The notes beneath the pieces are model-generated. The model did no database searches, was not told the DNA's origin, and saw nothing but the letters and a program-made list of their open reading frames with translations. Both the position numbers and the translations under genes were made by a program. A DNA stretch of 64,000 nucleotides from contig CAMDDL010000003.1 in the NCBI GenBank assembly GCA_945891505.1, positions 62,001-126,000 of the forward strand, written 5' to 3'. Below are positions 45,947-53,723 of the stretch, piece by piece (position 1 is the first letter of the stretch; each line of letters starts with the position of its first letter). The DNA comes from Maricaulis salignorans (lineage in GTDB: Bacteria; Pseudomonadota; Alphaproteobacteria; Caulobacterales; Aquidulcibacteraceae).

Positions 45947-47158
45947 CTAGCGCCATAGCGCACGGGGGTCGCGCGTGCAGCTTAGCTGGGTCCCACCTAC
46001 ATCCAGCGCCAAACGATTGGCGGTGGGCTCTCCCCAAGCATAGCCTTCGGCCCGATCATCGCCATCAACCAAGAGATAGAGCGTCAGCGAAGGTCGGTTC
46101 TGGCCAATCGGCCATTCCACATTGCGTAGCCGGAGGCGAAGTTTTGCGGGTGACCCGCCCGCAAACTCAGCGCTCGCCATACCGCCTTGATCATGCACAA
46201 CAAGGTCGGTCACAATCGCGCGTTCTGCCCCTTTTGCAACGGAAGCCCAGCACGAGAAAGTCCTAGCGCGCTTCAACCGGGTTGGCGGCAAATCACTGCC
46301 ACCAAAGACGCGGACACCGCGCTCGTCAACGCCAACATCGCGCACTTCCCACACATTGGCAGAAAGGTCATGCTGTTCGCTGACCGATAGAACCCGTTTG
46401 TCGGCATTGGTCACGAGCTTGCAGGTTGCCGGACGGGTCGCGCCACTGAAGCCTTCGCCGCGCCGGCGCCAAATGATGTCGCAGCCTGCAACTTCGGTAA
46501 AGGCTTCTTTTTTCACCTGATCGGGCTTTAGGCCCTCTGCCCCTTCAATTTGACGCCAAGCCCCTTCCAGTGGTTTGCCGTCTTTGGGCGCAAAGCCTGC
46601 GAGGCGCACCGCCCCAAGCTCTTGATCGACGCTTAGGGTCCAAATTCGTTGGCGGACAACGGGGCCGGCTTCACCGCCCTTTCGGTATTCAACATAGAAG
46701 CTAACAGGGCCAAACTCTGGTGCCACGACTGGCTTGACGACCGCATGTAGCCTTTCATGGCGCAAAGGCAGAGGCACATTGAGCTCGGGCTCAAAAAAGC
46801 TCTGCAGCTCATTATCCCAGCGCCCAGCCAAAAGGTCGGCCAAGTCCAACACGTCTTTCTCGAGGACTTCCTTCATGGCTGGTGCCAACAGCTTAACCGG
46901 CACAGGAACTGGAGGCGGAGATGAAACAGACTTGGCTGGCAGTGTGGCTGAAAGGTCTGGCAGGCCAGCCTGTTCTGCGATCAATTGGTTGACCATGTCC
47001 GTCAGGATGCCCTCAGGCGTCAACTCTGCCGGTAGCGACTGTGCTGTGTTAGTGGGCTTGGATAAAGCTTGCGCCCAGCCAAAATTTGGGGAGAGGACGG
47101 CAAGGCATGCCACAAGGACGGCGGCGTTGTTCTGGTAGTGGCGTGTCGAAATCGGCAT
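45947..47158 (-). CDS. secreted CpcT/CpeT-like protein with an extra C-terminal domain
   Basis: A 403-residue exported protein: signal peptide 1-29 (cleavage near GWA/QA). The middle (about 105-255) fits the CpcT/CpeT fold: LLAGRWDNELQSFF, FYVEYRKGG, RQRIWTL and CDIIWRRRGEGFSGATRP with a later paired Cys. In cyanobacteria the fold attaches bilins to phycobiliproteins, but homologues in other bacteria exist without phycobilisomes and are not assigned. About 145 further residues (260-403) resemble nothing I know. A secreted lipid- or pigment-binding role is only a guess. Confidence 0.67.
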   Translation of the reverse strand: MPISTRHYQNNAAVLVACLAVLSPNFGWAQALSKPTNTAQSLPAELTPEGILTDMVNQLIAEQAGLPDLSATLPAKSVSSPPPVPVPVKLLAPAMKEVLEKDVLDLADLLAGRWDNELQSFFEPELNVPLPLRHERLHAVVKPVVAPEFGPVSFYVEYRKGGEAGPVVRQRIWTLSVDQELGAVRLAGFAPKDGKPLEGAWRQIEGAEGLKPDQVKKEAFTEVAGCDIIWRRRGEGFSGATRPATCKLVTNADKRVLSVSEQHDLSANVWEVRDVGVDERGVRVFGGSDLPPTRLKRARTFSCWASVAKGAERAIVTDLVVHDQGGMASAEFAGGSPAKLRLRLRNVEWPIGQNRPSLTLYLLVDGDDRAEGYAWGEPTANRLALDVGGTQLSCTRDPRALWR

Positions 47159-47251: not shown

Positions 47252-50200
47252 TTAGGACGCTAATGCCCTTGGTAACGTTGGGGCTGCTGGGGCTGCTTGG
47301 GCGGTTTGGGCGGTTGGGGCGCTGGTGCTGATTAGGGACGGGGTGGCGCTCGACGGCGTTGGGGCCAAGAGACGAACAAATTCGCTGGCGACCATAGGCT
47401 TGCCAAACAGATAGCCTTGCAACGTATGGACGCCCGCAGCTTTTAGAACAGCATGCTGCGTAGCCGTCTCGACGCCTTCGGCGACCACTTCGCGGCCCAA
47501 GGCCCGGCCGATACTGGAGACAGCTTGGATGATCGCCAAAGCCTCACGCGAGGTTTTCGGATCAAGATCGAGACTGGTCACAAACTCGCGGTCGATCTTG
47601 ATCTTGTCAAACGGGAAGCGGTGTAGGGAGGTCAAACTGGAATAACCGACACCGAAGTCATCCAGCGCCAGTTTGCAGCCCATGGACTTGATCTGGGCAA
47701 ACAGTTGTCGCACGCGATCAGGGTCACCCAAGAAGGCCGTTTCCGTCACTTCCAACACCACACGGGCGGGATTAAAACCGGTCTCGGCAAACAGCTCCTT
47801 CAGATCGCCGACAAAATTTTCGTCAATCAATTCAAGTGGTGACACGTTAAGTGCGATCGGCAGATTGCCCCAATCCGCGGTATCATTAAAAACGGCCTGG
47901 CGGACAAAGTGGCCGATGTGCGCAATGAAGCCCGATTTCTCGGCAATTGGAATAAAGACGTCTGGGCCAACACGCGCCCGACCGCCGCGATCCCAACGCA
48001 GAAGCGCTTCTGCCGACACGACCTGATTGCCGGTGCGGTCGTAGAGCGGCTGATAGACCATGCTAAGTGCACCGGTTTCCAGATCGGCCTCCAACTCATC
48101 GCGCAAGGCTTTTTCGTCTGGCGACAGAATGGCCGTGTTGAACACTTCGACGACTGTTGGCTTCACTTCGGCCTTAATCTCGAGTGCTGGTTCCTCAGGT
48201 AAGTCAGACTCCATCAGGACAGCGAGACGGTCGAGGGTCATGTGCAAAACCGCAATGGCACGCTCAATCTCAGACTGCGCAATCGGCGTGTTGTGGATGC
48301 GGACCGCAGCCTCAATCGTGCCAGCTAGTTTCGCTATGGCACTTGCACCAATGTTAAGGCTCATCGACTTCAGCGAGTGTGCAGCCTTCGCGATACGGTC
48401 CCGATCACCGGCGTTTAAGGCCTCTTGCAGTTCGATCAATGTGCTGGGGGCGTGGTTGCGATACAGGCCAACCACACGCACAAAGAAATCGCGACGGTGT
48501 GTCTTCAGATCGCGCAGGAAGGGCAGAATTACGGCTTCGTCAAACAAACCGCCTTCGGCTGAGCCCCCGGTCGTTTCCGACGCTTCCCACGTTTGATTAT
48601 CCGAGCGCGCGTCAATCATTTCGAGCGCCTTGGTTGCCAAATGCGCGGGCAGATTAGCTTTCAGGATTTCACCCAAAGCCACCAGCGTGAACGGCTTGTG
48701 CAATACTCCGTCCATCCCGCATTCCGACCAAGCATTTGCAGCCGTACCCACGACATGGGCTGTCAGGGCAACTATGGGCATAGGCTTGCGGCCTTCTTTG
48801 GCTTCAAGAGCGCGGATGGCGCGCGTGGCTTCATAGCCGTCCATAACAGGCATCGAGCCGTCCATAAGCACCAGATCGAAGTCTTTAGTCGCGAGAACGT
48901 TCAAGGCATCTTGGCCATCAACGGCCACATCAGCCTTAATTTCAAAGCGCGACAGGGCTTCCACCGCGACCTCGCGATTGACCTCACCATCGTCGACGAC
49001 CAAGACGCGGGCATCAGGAAAGGCCACCGTGATGGCTTGGTTCATCACACCGCCTTGGCTGAGGGCAAAACTGGTCCCATTACGGAGTGCCAAGATCAAA
49101 TGGTCAATATCAGCGTGGCGGACGGGGCGTTGCAATGCAGCAATTGCTTGACCAGCGCGCACCATGGCATCGGCGGCGGAATCATCGGCGTCGGCAATCA
49201 GCACCAGCTTTTTGGGATTAAAGCCGGGTGGCAATTCAGTGCGATTGACTTTGTCTGCAATCAGCAAGTCCGGCCGCAGAGCATCTGTTTGACCAATCAC
49301 AGCCCCCGCCGTAGCTAAGCGGCGACTGATCGCCCAAGATTCGACTTGGCCGTCGACAAAAATCTTGACGCATGAGGGCACGTCGCCCTCTTCCAGCTTG
49401 GGCGGGGCAGCTAAGACGCGTGCCTCACCCGTCAAGGCCGGCAAGCGTACATGAAAGCTGGTGCCGTGGCCCTGTTTACTGGTCGCGCCAATCTGGCCGC
49501 CCATGGCTTCCACCAAGCGCTTGGAGATCGACAAGCCAAGACCTGTGCCACCAAAACGGCGAGTGGTGGTTTGGTCTTCTTGGGAGAAGGCTGAAAAGAT
49601 CCCGGAAATCTTATCTTCAGCAATCCCGATGCCGGTATCCTGCACAATCAAGCGCCAAAACTGACTATCTGGGTCCGGCTCCAACCGAACAAGCACGTGG
49701 CCGGTCTCGGTAAATTTCAAAGCGTTGGAAACGAGGTTTGAGATCACTTGGCCAAGACGGACGGAATCAGCAGGAATCATCTTGGGGGCTTGTGGGTGAG
49801 CCGAAGCGACCAGCTCCAAGCCCTTTTCCCGAGCTTTTGTGTGGAATAGGGCCAAAACATCATCGACCAAGTCCAGCACATTGATCTCGCAAATCTCCAC
49901 TTCTAGCTTGCCAGCTTCAATCTTGGAGAAGTCGAGAATATCGTTGATCACGGCCAGCAAGCTACGGCCAGATTTCACGATTGTATCGGCATGGCGCTTG
50001 GCTTTGGCGGGCAAGGATTCCGCCGCCAACAATTCCGCCATCACCATCACACCATTCATTGGCGTACGGATTTCGTGGCTCATGGTCGCCAAAAAGTCTG
50101 ACTTGGCGGCGTTGGCACGCTCTGCTGAGTCTCGAGCCACCAGATAGTCGCTCGTCCGCGCAGCCACTTCAGCTTCCAGACCGCGCATATGGGCCTCAAT

Positions 50201-50980
50201 GCGGCGATCCCGCTCACCAATGGCTTCCAACATGGCATTGAAGCCTGTCACCAGCGTGCCGACTTCGTCCGTGGTGGTTGCCTCCACCCGTTGCGAAAAA
50301 TCGCCTTTCTCACCAATTGCGGCCACTGACTTGGTCAGATCGGTCAAGGGCTCGGTCAACGCGCGTTGAATGCGACGAGAAATCCCCAACGACATCAGGA
50401 GGGCCAAAAAGGCGATCCCCAACACGCTGCCAATGGAACGCAGCAAGGGTGCCAAGAAGTCGTTAGCCATATGGACCACGACGACGCGCCCGAGAACCCT
50501 ACCGCCCAACTCAATCGGCGAGACGACTTCCACCGATTTGGTGGTGATCAGCGCCAGAAGGTTTGGATCGGCGCTTTCACTGTCCAAGCGCACGTCGTTG
50601 CGCAGGCGGGTACCAGAGCCGTTTTCAGCCAAGGACATGCCATTAGCAAGTTCGACCCGGGCATAGACGATCCCTGGGCTGCGCGAGATCGCACGAATAG
50701 CGATAAAGGCGCGTTGGCGATCTTCGTCATCTGCTGCTTCCGCCGCACTGCTGGCCAAAACTTGCGCTGCCGTCCGCATCTCAGACCAGCGCGCCTCTGC
50801 ATGGCGCGTCATATCCTGATAGGCGAAAATCATAGTGACCGGCACAACCGAGAAAATCACCGAACCGAGCACAAGCGCCGCCAACCGGGACCGGATGGAG
50901 CTTGGCTTTTTGGCCTTTTGGACTTTCTGTTTAGGAGGCTTCGTCTGAGATTTCACCTGATCAAACCTAGGGGCTAGCAT
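47252..50980 (-). CDS. hybrid sensor kinase with receiver, HPt and EAL (c-di-GMP phosphodiesterase) domains
   Basis: A 1242-residue signalling protein. In order: transmembrane helices at about 31-55 and 183-201 around a periplasmic domain; HAMP (about 202-256); HisKA with H302 (MSHEIRTPMNG); HATPase (N box NALKFTE, G box GGTGLGLS); receiver with D707 (LMDGSMPVMDG) and lysine in HKPF; HPt with H868 (AAHSLKS); and a C-terminal EAL domain with EALLRW, LNVSP, EVTET, LDDFG, KIDREFV and AEGVET, all catalytic residues present. No GGDEF domain. ATG 50980 has AGGAAG upstream. It stands divergent from a receiver-kinase gene. A full phosphorelay fused to a phosphodiesterase is uncommon. Confidence 0.95.
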   Translation of the reverse strand: MLAPRFDQVKSQTKPPKQKVQKAKKPSSIRSRLAALVLGSVIFSVVPVTMIFAYQDMTRHAEARWSEMRTAAQVLASSAAEAADDEDRQRAFIAIRAISRSPGIVYARVELANGMSLAENGSGTRLRNDVRLDSESADPNLLALITTKSVEVVSPIELGGRVLGRVVVVHMANDFLAPLLRSIGSVLGIAFLALLMSLGISRRIQRALTEPLTDLTKSVAAIGEKGDFSQRVEATTTDEVGTLVTGFNAMLEAIGERDRRIEAHMRGLEAEVAARTSDYLVARDSAERANAAKSDFLATMSHEIRTPMNGVMVMAELLAAESLPAKAKRHADTIVKSGRSLLAVINDILDFSKIEAGKLEVEICEINVLDLVDDVLALFHTKAREKGLELVASAHPQAPKMIPADSVRLGQVISNLVSNALKFTETGHVLVRLEPDPDSQFWRLIVQDTGIGIAEDKISGIFSAFSQEDQTTTRRFGGTGLGLSISKRLVEAMGGQIGATSKQGHGTSFHVRLPALTGEARVLAAPPKLEEGDVPSCVKIFVDGQVESWAISRRLATAGAVIGQTDALRPDLLIADKVNRTELPPGFNPKKLVLIADADDSAADAMVRAGQAIAALQRPVRHADIDHLILALRNGTSFALSQGGVMNQAITVAFPDARVLVVDDGEVNREVAVEALSRFEIKADVAVDGQDALNVLATKDFDLVLMDGSMPVMDGYEATRAIRALEAKEGRKPMPIVALTAHVVGTAANAWSECGMDGVLHKPFTLVALGEILKANLPAHLATKALEMIDARSDNQTWEASETTGGSAEGGLFDEAVILPFLRDLKTHRRDFFVRVVGLYRNHAPSTLIELQEALNAGDRDRIAKAAHSLKSMSLNIGASAIAKLAGTIEAAVRIHNTPIAQSEIERAIAVLHMTLDRLAVLMESDLPEEPALEIKAEVKPTVVEVFNTAILSPDEKALRDELEADLETGALSMVYQPLYDRTGNQVVSAEALLRWDRGGRARVGPDVFIPIAEKSGFIAHIGHFVRQAVFNDTADWGNLPIALNVSPLELIDENFVGDLKELFAETGFNPARVVLEVTETAFLGDPDRVRQLFAQIKSMGCKLALDDFGVGYSSLTSLHRFPFDKIKIDREFVTSLDLDPKTSREALAIIQAVSSIGRALGREVVAEGVETATQHAVLKAAGVHTLQGYLFGKPMVASEFVRLLAPTPSSATPSLISTSAPTAQTAQAAPAAPTLPRALAS

Positions 50981-51080
50981 CGGACTTCCTAAGTAGCGCG
51001 GACACATTAAGTGCGGGTTAAACCAACAGAATTTGGCCGTTGCTGAACGTAAGGGCATAGCTGCTTCACGTATGGTTAGT

Positions 51081-51112
51081 TTGACGAGCGGTTAACCGAT
51101 TTAAGCTATAAA
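51081..51112 (+). promoter_or_regulatory. possible promoter with a palindrome in the spacer
   Basis: TTGACG (51081-51086) and TATAAA (51107-51112) are separated by 20 bases, longer than usual, and the spacer holds the perfect palindrome CGGTTAACCG (51089-51098). It lies in the 237-base gap between the divergent hybrid kinase and the receiver-kinase gene, about 100 bases before the latter's ATG. Long-spacer promoters with an internal operator are known for MerR-type activators; nothing here names the regulator. Confidence 0.4.
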
Positions 51113-51217
51113 CTGCTGGCAACAGGAGTCTAACAGACGTGCTCAAAGCCGTTTTAATCCATCATTACAGGCAAGCTGAAATCGCGTTTGTCCGCCGTTT
51201 TGACAAGGTCGCACCCT

Positions 51218-52354
51218 ATGAGTGACTTTGGCACAGTGGCGGCATCGCAATTTGTAGCGACGGATAATGCGCGGATTTTGGTGGTCGACGACGATCCAAT
51301 CCTGCGGGAGTTTGCGGGCGTTTATTTGTCTAGCCCGACGATGGAAGTTGAAGTCGCAGAAGATGGCCACGCCGCTTTGGAGCGCCTGAAGCAAGGTGGG
51401 ATCGACATTGCCTTAGTCGATCTGGAAATGCCCATCATGGATGGGTTTGAACTGATCGCTGCCGTGCGCGCCGAACCCAGCCTCGAGGACTTGCCCATTG
51501 TGGTCATCACAGGCCGCGAAGACATGGAAGCAATCGACCGTGCTTATGGCACAGGGGCGACCTCGTTTGCGATCAAGCCGCTGAACTGGCGCTTGGTCAG
51601 CCACCAATTGTCCTATGTGCTGCGCAATAGCCGCGCCAATGCTAAACAGCGCCAAGGACGCCGCTTAGCAGAACAAGCCGATGGCTTGAAAACCAACATC
51701 CTGCGCCTAATGCGGCACGAATTTAATACGCCCTTCAATGTCATCCTAGGCTTTGGTAAGCTCATTGAGGGCCATAGCGACAATTTAGCCATTCAAGGAC
51801 ATGCCCGCCAGATTCTGAACGCCGCTGAGAAATTCAAGCGAATGCATGATCAATTGATGGAATCCGCCCGCATTCTCTCTGGCGATATTGAGGTCACCAA
51901 AAAGGTGTTCTCAGTTGCCGATTTGATTAAAGCCGCAGCGCGTGAAGCCCTCCGCGCGGGTGGCAAGTCGACCGATCTGAAACTGGCCGATCGGACTGGC
52001 AACTCTGAAATAACTGGCGATTATGATTTGCTGCTGACGGCTTTGCGCAATTTGATTGAAAACGCATTTGCCCATGGCCAAGCCCCGATCCATGTGATCG
52101 GCCAACGAACAGCCAATGGCCGGGTAGCCATCCGCGTCTCAGATGCGGGTCAAGGCATGGACCAAACCAGCTTCGCCCTTGCAATCCAGGCCTTTAAGCA
52201 AGGCAACAACGTGCTGCAGCGCACAGAAAATGGGCTAGGATTAGGCTTGGCCACGGCTGTTGGTAGCTTGAAAGCTGTTGGTGGTGAAATACACCTTATC
52301 AACGGTGAAGATGTCGGCTTTGTTATTGAGATGGAATTTCCACTCGAATTGTAA
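51218..52354 (+). CDS. receiver-histidine kinase hybrid (receiver first)
   Basis: A 378-residue soluble protein: receiver domain (about 18-135) with D68 in LVDLEMPIMDG and KPL as the conserved lysine, then a HisKA domain with H167 (LMRHEFNTPFNVILGFG) and an HATPase domain with the N box NLIENAFAHG and the G box NGLGLGLATA. No membrane segments. The unusual order, receiver before kinase, means it can take phosphate from another protein and act on a kinase partner. The ATG at 51218 follows AAGG. It is divergent from the hybrid kinase-EAL gene, so the pair likely forms a relay. Confidence 0.92.
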   Translation: MSDFGTVAASQFVATDNARILVVDDDPILREFAGVYLSSPTMEVEVAEDGHAALERLKQGGIDIALVDLEMPIMDGFELIAAVRAEPSLEDLPIVVITGREDMEAIDRAYGTGATSFAIKPLNWRLVSHQLSYVLRNSRANAKQRQGRRLAEQADGLKTNILRLMRHEFNTPFNVILGFGKLIEGHSDNLAIQGHARQILNAAEKFKRMHDQLMESARILSGDIEVTKKVFSVADLIKAAAREALRAGGKSTDLKLADRTGNSEITGDYDLLLTALRNLIENAFAHGQAPIHVIGQRTANGRVAIRVSDAGQGMDQTSFALAIQAFKQGNNVLQRTENGLGLGLATAVGSLKAVGGEIHLINGEDVGFVIEMEFPLEL

Positions 52355-52505
52355 TAATTCAGAATTCAATTCTCAATTCTATGAATATAAAAGCATTGTA
52401 TATTGAATGAATAATTTCGATTAATAAGTGCATCACATGCTTCAATTTAATCGACTGTTTAGCTCATTGGCCTACAAACTGCAGACTGTGAGGAGGCGTG
52501 CAAGA
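52355..52505. other. AT-rich gap with short interrupted palindrome
   Basis: The gap after the receiver-kinase gene is very AT-rich (52355-52432). It holds AGAATT-C-AATTCT (52361-52373) and a further AATTCT (52375-52380). It could be the promoter region of the TadG-like gene; no clear -35/-10 pair can be defended. Confidence 0.35.
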
Positions 52506-53723
52506 ATGTTCGACCGACTAAATGGCAAGAAATCTCGGCGGGGCAATGTAACGCTGATTACTGCTTTGGCGTTGGCACCGTTGAGTTATGCGGTCTTGTG
52601 CGGTGTCGAAATTGCCGGGATCGCCCAAAGTAAAGCCAATTTGCAAGCAGCCGTAGACGCAGGCGCTTTAGCCGGCGCCGGTGAATTGAGCGTGTCCACC
52701 CGCGGTGATGACGGCATAAGAAGCACCGCGATTGCCCTCGCTACCAATGCGGTCAGTGGCATGCCTGACATCACGCAACCAAGTTTCGACGTCGCCATTG
52801 ATCGCGAAGGTGGCACCGTCAGCGTTACAGCACGAGCGCAGTTTCAATCGATGTTTTCAGGCCTCGTGACCGATAAAACACCGCTGGTGGTCAAATCGAC
52901 GGCAGAAACGTTGAGCAAGACGCCACTTTGTGTGCTCCAAATTGACCAAGCCGCTGACATTGGCGCAAATGTCATGGATAGTGCCATCATTCGGGCACCT
53001 GGCTGTTTGGTTCAGTCGAATTCAGGAATCTCGGTTGTGAATTTGGGGCGCATTGAAGCGGGCTCAGTACAAGCGGTAAAAAGCGCAAGCGGCACCATCT
53101 CTCCTGCAGCCAGCATTGGTGCTTTGCCGATGGATGACCCCTTTGTCGACTTGGACTTAACCTCGCCTAATTGTGTCAATGCACTGGAGAATGTGGTCCA
53201 TGGCGGAAATGCGATGATCAGTCTTCCCGCTGGCGTGCATTGTGAGAATTATAAAGTTACCGGCAACGCGACATTGATACTCGAGCCCGGCGAACATTAT
53301 TTCAAAGGACAATTGGAGTTTAACGGAAACTCTAAATTACGTGGCGATGATGTCGCGTTGATCTTTGACCCCGACCGCGCATTCTCATTTGATCAAAAGG
53401 CCGATATCGAATTAACCGCGCGCAAGTCGGGCCCACTTGCTGGCTTTTTGATTGCCACAGGACGCAACAATACAAAGCGCTTTACGATTTCTTCAAGTAA
53501 AGTCCGAGAATTATTGGGCACGATTTATATCCCAGGAAGCGAATTTTACATTTCTTCTTCTGGAAACGTGGCCCAAGACTCGGCGTGGAGTGTGATCGTC
53601 GCAAAGTCGCTTACTTTGGACAATAACCCGGTCTTGGTGATCAATAACAACTATGCAGGGTCGAATGTGCCCGTTCCCGAAGGGGTTGGTCCATCGTCTG
53701 GGGTACCCAGACTGGCGCGCTAG
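52506..53723 (+). CDS. TadE/TadG-like Flp pilus-associated protein
   Basis: A 405-residue protein with the N-terminal TadE/TadG pattern: a basic lead (KKSRRGNVTLI), one transmembrane segment at about 15-38, then the helix AQSKANLQAAVDAGALAGAGEL. The long C-terminal part (about 140-405) has many short beta-like repeats, with polymer-forming or right-handed-helix character, and two cysteines near 140 and 165. AGGAGG precedes ATG 52506. No other tad genes lie in the window, so it is solitary. Pilus, adhesin or surface roles are possible. Confidence 0.76.
   Translation: MFDRLNGKKSRRGNVTLITALALAPLSYAVLCGVEIAGIAQSKANLQAAVDAGALAGAGELSVSTRGDDGIRSTAIALATNAVSGMPDITQPSFDVAIDREGGTVSVTARAQFQSMFSGLVTDKTPLVVKSTAETLSKTPLCVLQIDQAADIGANVMDSAIIRAPGCLVQSNSGISVVNLGRIEAGSVQAVKSASGTISPAASIGALPMDDPFVDLDLTSPNCVNALENVVHGGNAMISLPAGVHCENYKVTGNATLILEPGEHYFKGQLEFNGNSKLRGDDVALIFDPDRAFSFDQKADIELTARKSGPLAGFLIATGRNNTKRFTISSSKVRELLGTIYIPGSEFYISSSGNVAQDSAWSVIVAKSLTLDNNPVLVINNNYAGSNVPVPEGVGPSSGVPRLAR

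Follow-up and report, generated by a model that had tools for sequence, protein, structure and literature searches.

A hybrid sensor kinase fused to an intact-looking EAL domain, and its conserved receiver partner, in Maricaulis salignorans and related bacteria

Three described systems couple a histidine phosphotransfer (Hpt) domain to a receiver-EAL (REC-EAL) regulator: VieS/VieA of Vibrio cholerae (PMC4352251), and RocS1/RocR of Pseudomonas aeruginosa and ArrS/ArrR of Aeromonas veronii (PMC11841396). According to the cited sections, each has a membrane hybrid kinase with histidine kinase (HK), REC and Hpt parts, the Hpt serves a receiver, and the output includes hydrolysis of cyclic di-GMP (c-di-GMP) by an EAL domain (PMC4352251, PMC11841396, PMC12051241). 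The EAL domain lies on the separate REC-EAL regulator, and the sensors are periplasmic binding folds. Here we describe a related but differently arranged locus in a 64,000-nucleotide stretch of Maricaulis salignorans (GenBank assembly GCA_945891505.1, contig CAMDDL010000003.1, positions 62,001 to 126,000), which we call the window. In the window, the EAL domain follows the Hpt of the kinase itself, the receiver is encoded apart, and the sensor is CHASE8-like.

The domain combination itself is already in print as a census result for Caulobacterales. Koppenhofer and Lang (2022) list EAL proteins associated with HisKA, Hpt, HAMP and HATPase domains from Caulobacterales and from a Rhizobiales cluster (PMC9756655). 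The window protein has EAL, HisKA, HATPase, Hpt and HAMP in one chain and is very likely a member of that class. The relevant section of the census gives domain co-occurrence only, without locus, partner or mechanism.

We found that the fusion is encoded by a 1268-residue open reading frame (ORF) at 47252-51058 on the minus strand, as indicated by Pfam and by its orthologues. HAMP, HisKA, HATPase_c, Response_reg, Hpt and EAL are present in this single chain, each above the Pfam cut-off, and Pfam found no GGDEF domain in the ORF. The HisKA domain (residues 318-383; 49910-50107) carries the phospho-acceptor His328 and is preceded by HAMP (residues 231-280; 50219-50368) and followed by HATPase_c (residues 431-541; 49436-49768). 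After these come the receiver (residues 685-798; 48665-49006) with Asp733, the Hpt (residues 862-945; 48224-48475) with His894, and the EAL phosphodiesterase domain (residues 987-1221; 47396-48100). The linker between Hpt and EAL is 41 residues long and poorly conserved. The original prediction, made from the DNA alone, had placed a sensor, kinase, receiver, HPt and an EAL domain with all catalytic motifs in one protein, with no GGDEF. Pfam and the conserved residues confirm this. That prediction lacked the CHASE8-like domain, a degenerate receiver and a TadE/G-like gene behind the neighboring receiver-kinase, all of which are described below.

Residues are numbered here on the 1268-residue ORF. 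Numbers on the 1242-residue form used previously are lower by 26, so that H302, D707 and H868 of that form are H328, D733 and H894. The kinase likely starts at Met27 (nucleotide 50980), giving 1242 residues, because one orthologue (G006) has an upstream TAG and its frame opens only four codons before that Met.

The sensor region (residues 92-195; 50474-50785) was assigned from Pfam scores and a structural model. CHASE8 scored 19.9 bits in the window protein (cut-off 27) and was above the cut-off in one of four orthologues scanned (L015, 32.9 bits). The model has a long helix, a mixed beta unit and a second long helix. Its best fold match, an integrative model of WalK, is little informative.

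The residues expected to carry a phosphorelay are conserved. His328 is kept in all 62 orthologues aligned, Asp733 in 61 of 62, and His894 in all 61 rows with sequence at that position. The EAL domain can be aligned over its full length with solved EAL proteins, and E1017, N1071, E1103, E1106, D1133, D1134, K1154, E1194, E1197 and Q1214 are invariant in 32/32 fused proteins. We take these ten to be the positions usually named as catalytic; the Glu, Asn, Asp, Lys and Gln set of an active EAL domain is thus complete throughout. Arg1021, which adjoins the EAL motif, is Ser in three fused proteins. In the four same-genus pairs compared, the ratio of nonsynonymous to synonymous substitution rates (dN/dS) of the EAL domain was 0.007-0.025, among the lowest of the domains. 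We regard the EAL domain as a predicted phosphodiesterase that looks intact.

The fusion is not a one-off. Full-length orthologues are present in 9/9 sampled genomes of the genus, and on this ground, together with strong purifying selection, we rejected a chance fusion or an artefact of assembly. A profile of the Hpt-EAL region detected both domains in one stretch in 31 of 398 genomes of the order among the matches listed (E ≤3.5e-115). The next listed matches (1.2e-90 and weaker) begin at position 38 or later and so include at most part of the Hpt. A full-length profile recovered the whole protein in 30 of the 398 genomes among the matches listed; the 31st, G011, has it split over contigs. 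In a class-wide sample of 385 genomes, G000 (the window genome) and G042, both from the order, gave the sole full-length rows among the matches listed. In a phylum-wide sample, the fusion occurred in 5/398 genomes, all from this order. Plasmid searches returned just generic kinases and regulators among the matches listed. Up to five candidates per genome were scored for the Hpt-EAL profile and two for the full-length profile; weaker or second copies may be missed.

A core without EAL also occurs in the order. Among the matches listed, it was found in 52/398 genomes of the order with 713-938 bits, some matches being cut by contig ends and three (G205, G231 and G240) stopping before the Hpt. The next match listed scored 523 bits.

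A second gene lies divergent to the fusion. It encodes a 388-residue protein of the order REC-HisKA-HATPase_c (51188-52354, plus strand), in agreement with the receiver-first kinase that had been noted there. Its receiver (residues 30-133; 51275-51586) has Asp78 as the probable acceptor, and its HATPase_c spans residues 277-387 (52016-52348). The HisKA part (residues 168-231; 51689-51880) scored 23.9 bits, just below the cut-off of 26.9. If the kinase starts at Met27, the two genes share an intergenic region of 50981-51187. A second protein in the window genome (G000:C33:15254-16387, plus strand) is 40% identical to the receiver-kinase over residues 18-386.

We compared 62 orthologous loci, which comprise 31/31 EAL-containing genomes of the order (the window's included), 28/52 EAL-less ones, and L036, L037 (from Caulobacter ginsengisoli DSM 18695) and L039. 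Locus L038, with the same place and scores as L218, was omitted from these counts, and L203 was omitted from alignment A4. A receiver-encoding partner is present in 60 of the 62 loci, with and without EAL, which supports the view that the two divergent genes belong together. The partner is labeled divergent in 56 loci and lies on the same strand in three. In one more (L133) it was mislabeled as convergent through an over-long ORF; the actual receiver is on the opposite strand, upstream. All 60 partners retain the acceptor Asp.

The form of the partner varies with that of the kinase. In loci with an EAL kinase (n=33), the partner is REC-HK in 11 and a receiver alone in 20. In loci with an EAL-less kinase (n=29), it is REC-HK in 19 and REC-EAL in 10. 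No locus of the 62 carries EAL on the kinase and on the partner together. The REC-only and REC-HK partners form one receiver family, scoring 153-199 bits with a partner profile, whereas the kinase's own receiver and other nearby receivers reach at most 72 bits.

These partners bear on the direction of phosphotransfer. Since 20/60 are receivers without any kinase part, the sequences indicate that the partner receiver is more likely an acceptor of phosphate than a donor. It had also been suggested that phosphate could go from the receiver-kinase to the Hpt of the fusion. The genes are divergent neighbors, and the partner's HATPase is above the cut-off and its HisKA nearly so. However, the partners that lack a kinase part do not support this suggestion, and direct phosphorylation of an Hpt by a kinase, with no receiver in between, is unusual. 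We regard transfer from the receiver-kinase to the Hpt as very improbable.

The sequences themselves give the domains, the conservation of their residues, the conserved partner and the constraint on EAL. Our favored interpretation, which we hold with fair though not high confidence, is that the locus encodes a membrane relay like VieS-VieA and RocS-RocR that has been re-partitioned, with the phosphodiesterase joined to the sensor, the terminal receiver on a separate gene, and two outputs. The window kinase resembles those systems in combining HK, REC and Hpt parts with intact relay residues. It differs in its neighbor, which is REC-HK instead of the adjacent REC-EAL regulator. In this proposal, the CHASE8-like periplasmic domain would sense a cue and, via HAMP, set the protein in kinase or phosphatase mode. 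Phosphate would pass within the chain from His328 to Asp733 to His894, which would then hand it to Asp78 of the partner encoded by the divergent gene. The C-terminal EAL domain would hydrolyze c-di-GMP on the same membrane complex. A single sensor would then have two outputs, a phosphorylated partner and local breakdown of c-di-GMP. We infer each phosphotransfer step, the activity of the EAL domain and any effect of the relay on it in cis.

A two-protein version of this layout occurs within the same order. In family f2, the EAL-less kinase lies beside a REC-EAL regulator in 10/10 loci (from profiles; Pfam was run on five), which is the VieS-VieA/RocS-RocR arrangement. This supports a link of the kinase family to c-di-GMP breakdown.

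More distant relatives were also found. A Cellvibrionales metagenome-assembled genome (MAG) encodes a 1493-residue protein (L070:1405-5883, plus strand) with sCache_4, HAMP, HisKA, HATPase, Hpt, two receivers, GGDEF and EAL. Like the window protein, it has the whole relay and EAL in one polypeptide. It differs in its sCache_4 sensor, in the GGDEF before the EAL, and in the second receiver, whose place between Hpt and GGDEF is judged from a gap. Thauera and Rubrivivax MAG contigs encode kinases that match through the Hpt region with ~34 and 38% identity, respectively. Each is directly followed by a REC-GGDEF-EAL gene.

Several observations weigh against the proposed re-partitioning. Two loci with an EAL kinase have no adjacent partner. 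One is L123, situated at the end of a contig; the other is L127, in whose genome a partner homologue of 48% identity is encoded on another contig. Just 50/60 partners keep the usual receiver Thr/Ser, and in L207 the partner has a weak kinase part (50 bits). With the partner profile, the receivers of the REC-EAL regulators in f2 score 30-48 bits, and they are of a different family. No EAL was found in the fetched flanks of the 19 EAL-less loci with a REC-HK partner, mostly from family f5, so the core does not depend on EAL. One relative, G005, suggests from its residues that EAL may not need the relay (see below). Finally, an EAL tree separates the fused EALs (one group, support 80) from those of the f2 regulators (87), although a single clade was not rejected (approximately unbiased (AU) test, p 0.173, without rows L003, L005 and L070).

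Based on the EAL tree, the family appears to have been joined to EAL either twice or by a domain move, and both would tie it to c-di-GMP breakdown. We rejected as unproved a literal transfer of EAL from a REC-EAL regulator to the kinase, given the separated groups and the AU result. In a tree of the core (62 rows; like the EAL tree, made by a quick method), the presence of EAL changes once (SH-aLRT 99).

The fusion appears to have moved between families. Three f2 genomes (G306, G318 and G396) carry it, are placed within the f3 group in both the core and the EAL trees, and have the partner receiver and a TadE/G-like gene at the locus as well. This pattern suggests that an f3-type cassette moved laterally into f2 genomes. 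In these three loci (L204 in G306, L202 in G318 and L201 in G396), the receiver and TadE/G-like genes are rearranged onto the kinase strand.

Our results might also indicate that the relay stays within the protein and switches the fused EAL domain in cis. Phosphorylated REC or Hpt would alter the EAL dimer, and the partner would be a phosphate sink or brake. The EAL domain does come after the Hpt, across the linker described above, and 31/32 fused proteins retain His328, Asp733 and His894 jointly with the ten EAL positions. In addition, the cited section on the Vie system reports that VieB, a receiver protein, inhibits VieS (PMC4352251). However, there is no receiver directly before the EAL domain, unlike in regulators of the RocR and VieA type, so that any control in cis would need to run via REC or Hpt. 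The complete conservation of the partner's acceptor Asp and the EAL retained in G005 without kinase or receiver residues also speak against an intraprotein switch, and we consider it doubtful. Any control in the window family could be of either sign, because phosphorylation of ArrR is described, in the cited sections on the three known systems, as having hindered its phosphodiesterase.

The exception among the 32 fused proteins is that of G005 (L123; G005:C11, 4309-8049, minus strand). It has lost G2-box glycines (G504D, G506S), an acidic residue of the receiver (D690T), the acceptor Asp (D733G) and the receiver Lys (K788R), and also has T766S. It retains Hpt His894 and every EAL residue checked. 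Its EAL domain is 81% identical to that of the window, as compared with 64% for HisKA, 59% for HATPase, 57% for Hpt, 47% for REC, 31% for the sensor and 20% for HAMP. EAL can thus persist without a working relay.

G005 has also likely lost the partner gene. Its genome gave no convincing partner; the best match scored 62 bits, versus 668 in G002 and 337 in G013. The kinase lies where its contig ends, and G005 gave no match to the acylase encoded next to the locus in other genomes.

The protein of G005 is what would be expected if the EAL domain were an eraser that degrades c-di-GMP locally and constitutively, whatever the state of phosphorylation, and the fusion just positioned it at a sensor or membrane site. 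Both the contrast between its EAL and its HAMP, sensor and REC and the loss of the G2-box glycines and the receiver Asp and Lys fit such an eraser. In contrast, the other 31 of the 32 fused proteins keep the checked kinase boxes, the receiver residues and the Hpt His, which indicates that the relay is under selection alongside EAL. We consider a constitutive eraser unlikely, somewhat more so than an intraprotein switch.

A degenerate receiver lies between HATPase_c and the true receiver (approximately residues 563-660; 49079-49372). Pfam does not recognize the region, but an AlphaFold2 model of the receiver pair (pLDDT 89.8, pTM 0.57) shows a receiver-like fold. In alignments the conserved Lys is replaced, and an acceptor-like Asp is present in the window and in only part of the family. 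Over the degenerate receiver plus receiver, full-length ShkA (6qrj) ranks first in Foldseek, followed by the tandem receivers of PleD. ShkA of Caulobacter crescentus likewise has the order kinase, pseudo-receiver, receiver, and the model, Foldseek and alignment all place a pseudo-receiver of this type in the window protein. According to the cited account, ShkA differs in that its Hpt is on a separate protein, ShpA, and it has no EAL (PMC7010744).

The likeness to ShkA might point to a feedback device, in which the degenerate receiver would bind c-di-GMP as in ShkA and set kinase activity, and EAL would remove the ligand. The Foldseek match is in line with such a device, and pseudo-receivers are proposed ligand sites in the cited ShkA work (PMC7010744). 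However, the ShkA residues concerned are not conserved in the window family. At the position of Tyr338, a residue of the c-di-GMP site, the window has Ala and the family varies; Arg324 lacks a clear counterpart, and the linker has no DDR motif. This mapping comes from a profile of the degenerate receiver alone, which matches ShkA REC1 (6qrl) weakly (E 0.033); the VIA-align rows span the true receiver only and have no bearing on it. The degenerate receiver also has the top dN/dS among the domains in 2/4 same-genus pairs. We rejected ShkA-type sensing by the degenerate receiver on its residues and consider the feedback device improbable.

The locus has further conserved neighbors. A TadE/G-like protein gene (52428-53723, plus strand; Pfam Tad) begins 74 bases after the receiver-kinase on the same strand. 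A homologue is present in 41/62 loci, in some of them between kinase and partner. A link of the relay to a surface structure through this gene is possible. A bolder form of our proposal is that the His-Asp-His relay directly gates the receiver-less EAL, and that the same Hpt loads the separate receiver, which acts with the TadE/G-like surface protein. We offer this form only tentatively. If true, one sensor would divide its signal between two branches, one carried by phosphate and the other by a second messenger.

Other features of the neighborhood vary. Locus L221 has three TadE/G-like copies. Eight f3 loci have a second stand-alone receiver gene, distinct from the partner, immediately downstream of the gene for the kinase-EAL protein and in the same orientation (L128:8427-8870, L133:8021-8665, L196:8387-8791, L198:4772-5182, L199:4699-5121, L200:4634-5071, L203:8514-8948 and L206:8346-8723). 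In the window, the gene behind the kinase (45947-47158, minus strand) encodes a CpeT/CpcT-family protein (PF06206). This family is best known from cyanobacterial phycobiliprotein lyases. A homologue adjoins the kinase in 9/9 genomes of the genus; none was detected in the 16 other loci searched.

Literature searches, which reached few of the subscription papers, found no characterized protein of identical architecture. As far as these searches go, what is new is the conservation of the partner, the alternative layout with REC-EAL, the apparent transfer between families and the naturally relay-dead variant. The model organism C. crescentus seems to lack this class, since the legend to a figure of its GGDEF/EAL proteins names, beside GGDEF and EAL, just REC, coiled-coil, PAS, MHYT and Chase4, with no kinase or Hpt domain (PMC3764195).

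The setting of the relay is one in which c-di-GMP drives the change from motile to sessile life, as stated for Caulobacterales in the cited sections (PMC3764195, PMC12700997). The locus supplies a concrete partner for the Hpt. Across related families, EAL is on the kinase, on the regulator or absent, which amounts to a natural experiment on wiring phosphorelays to second messengers. Because the placement of EAL varies and one relative is naturally relay-dead, the family already provides a test of how branches of this kind are gained and uncoupled.

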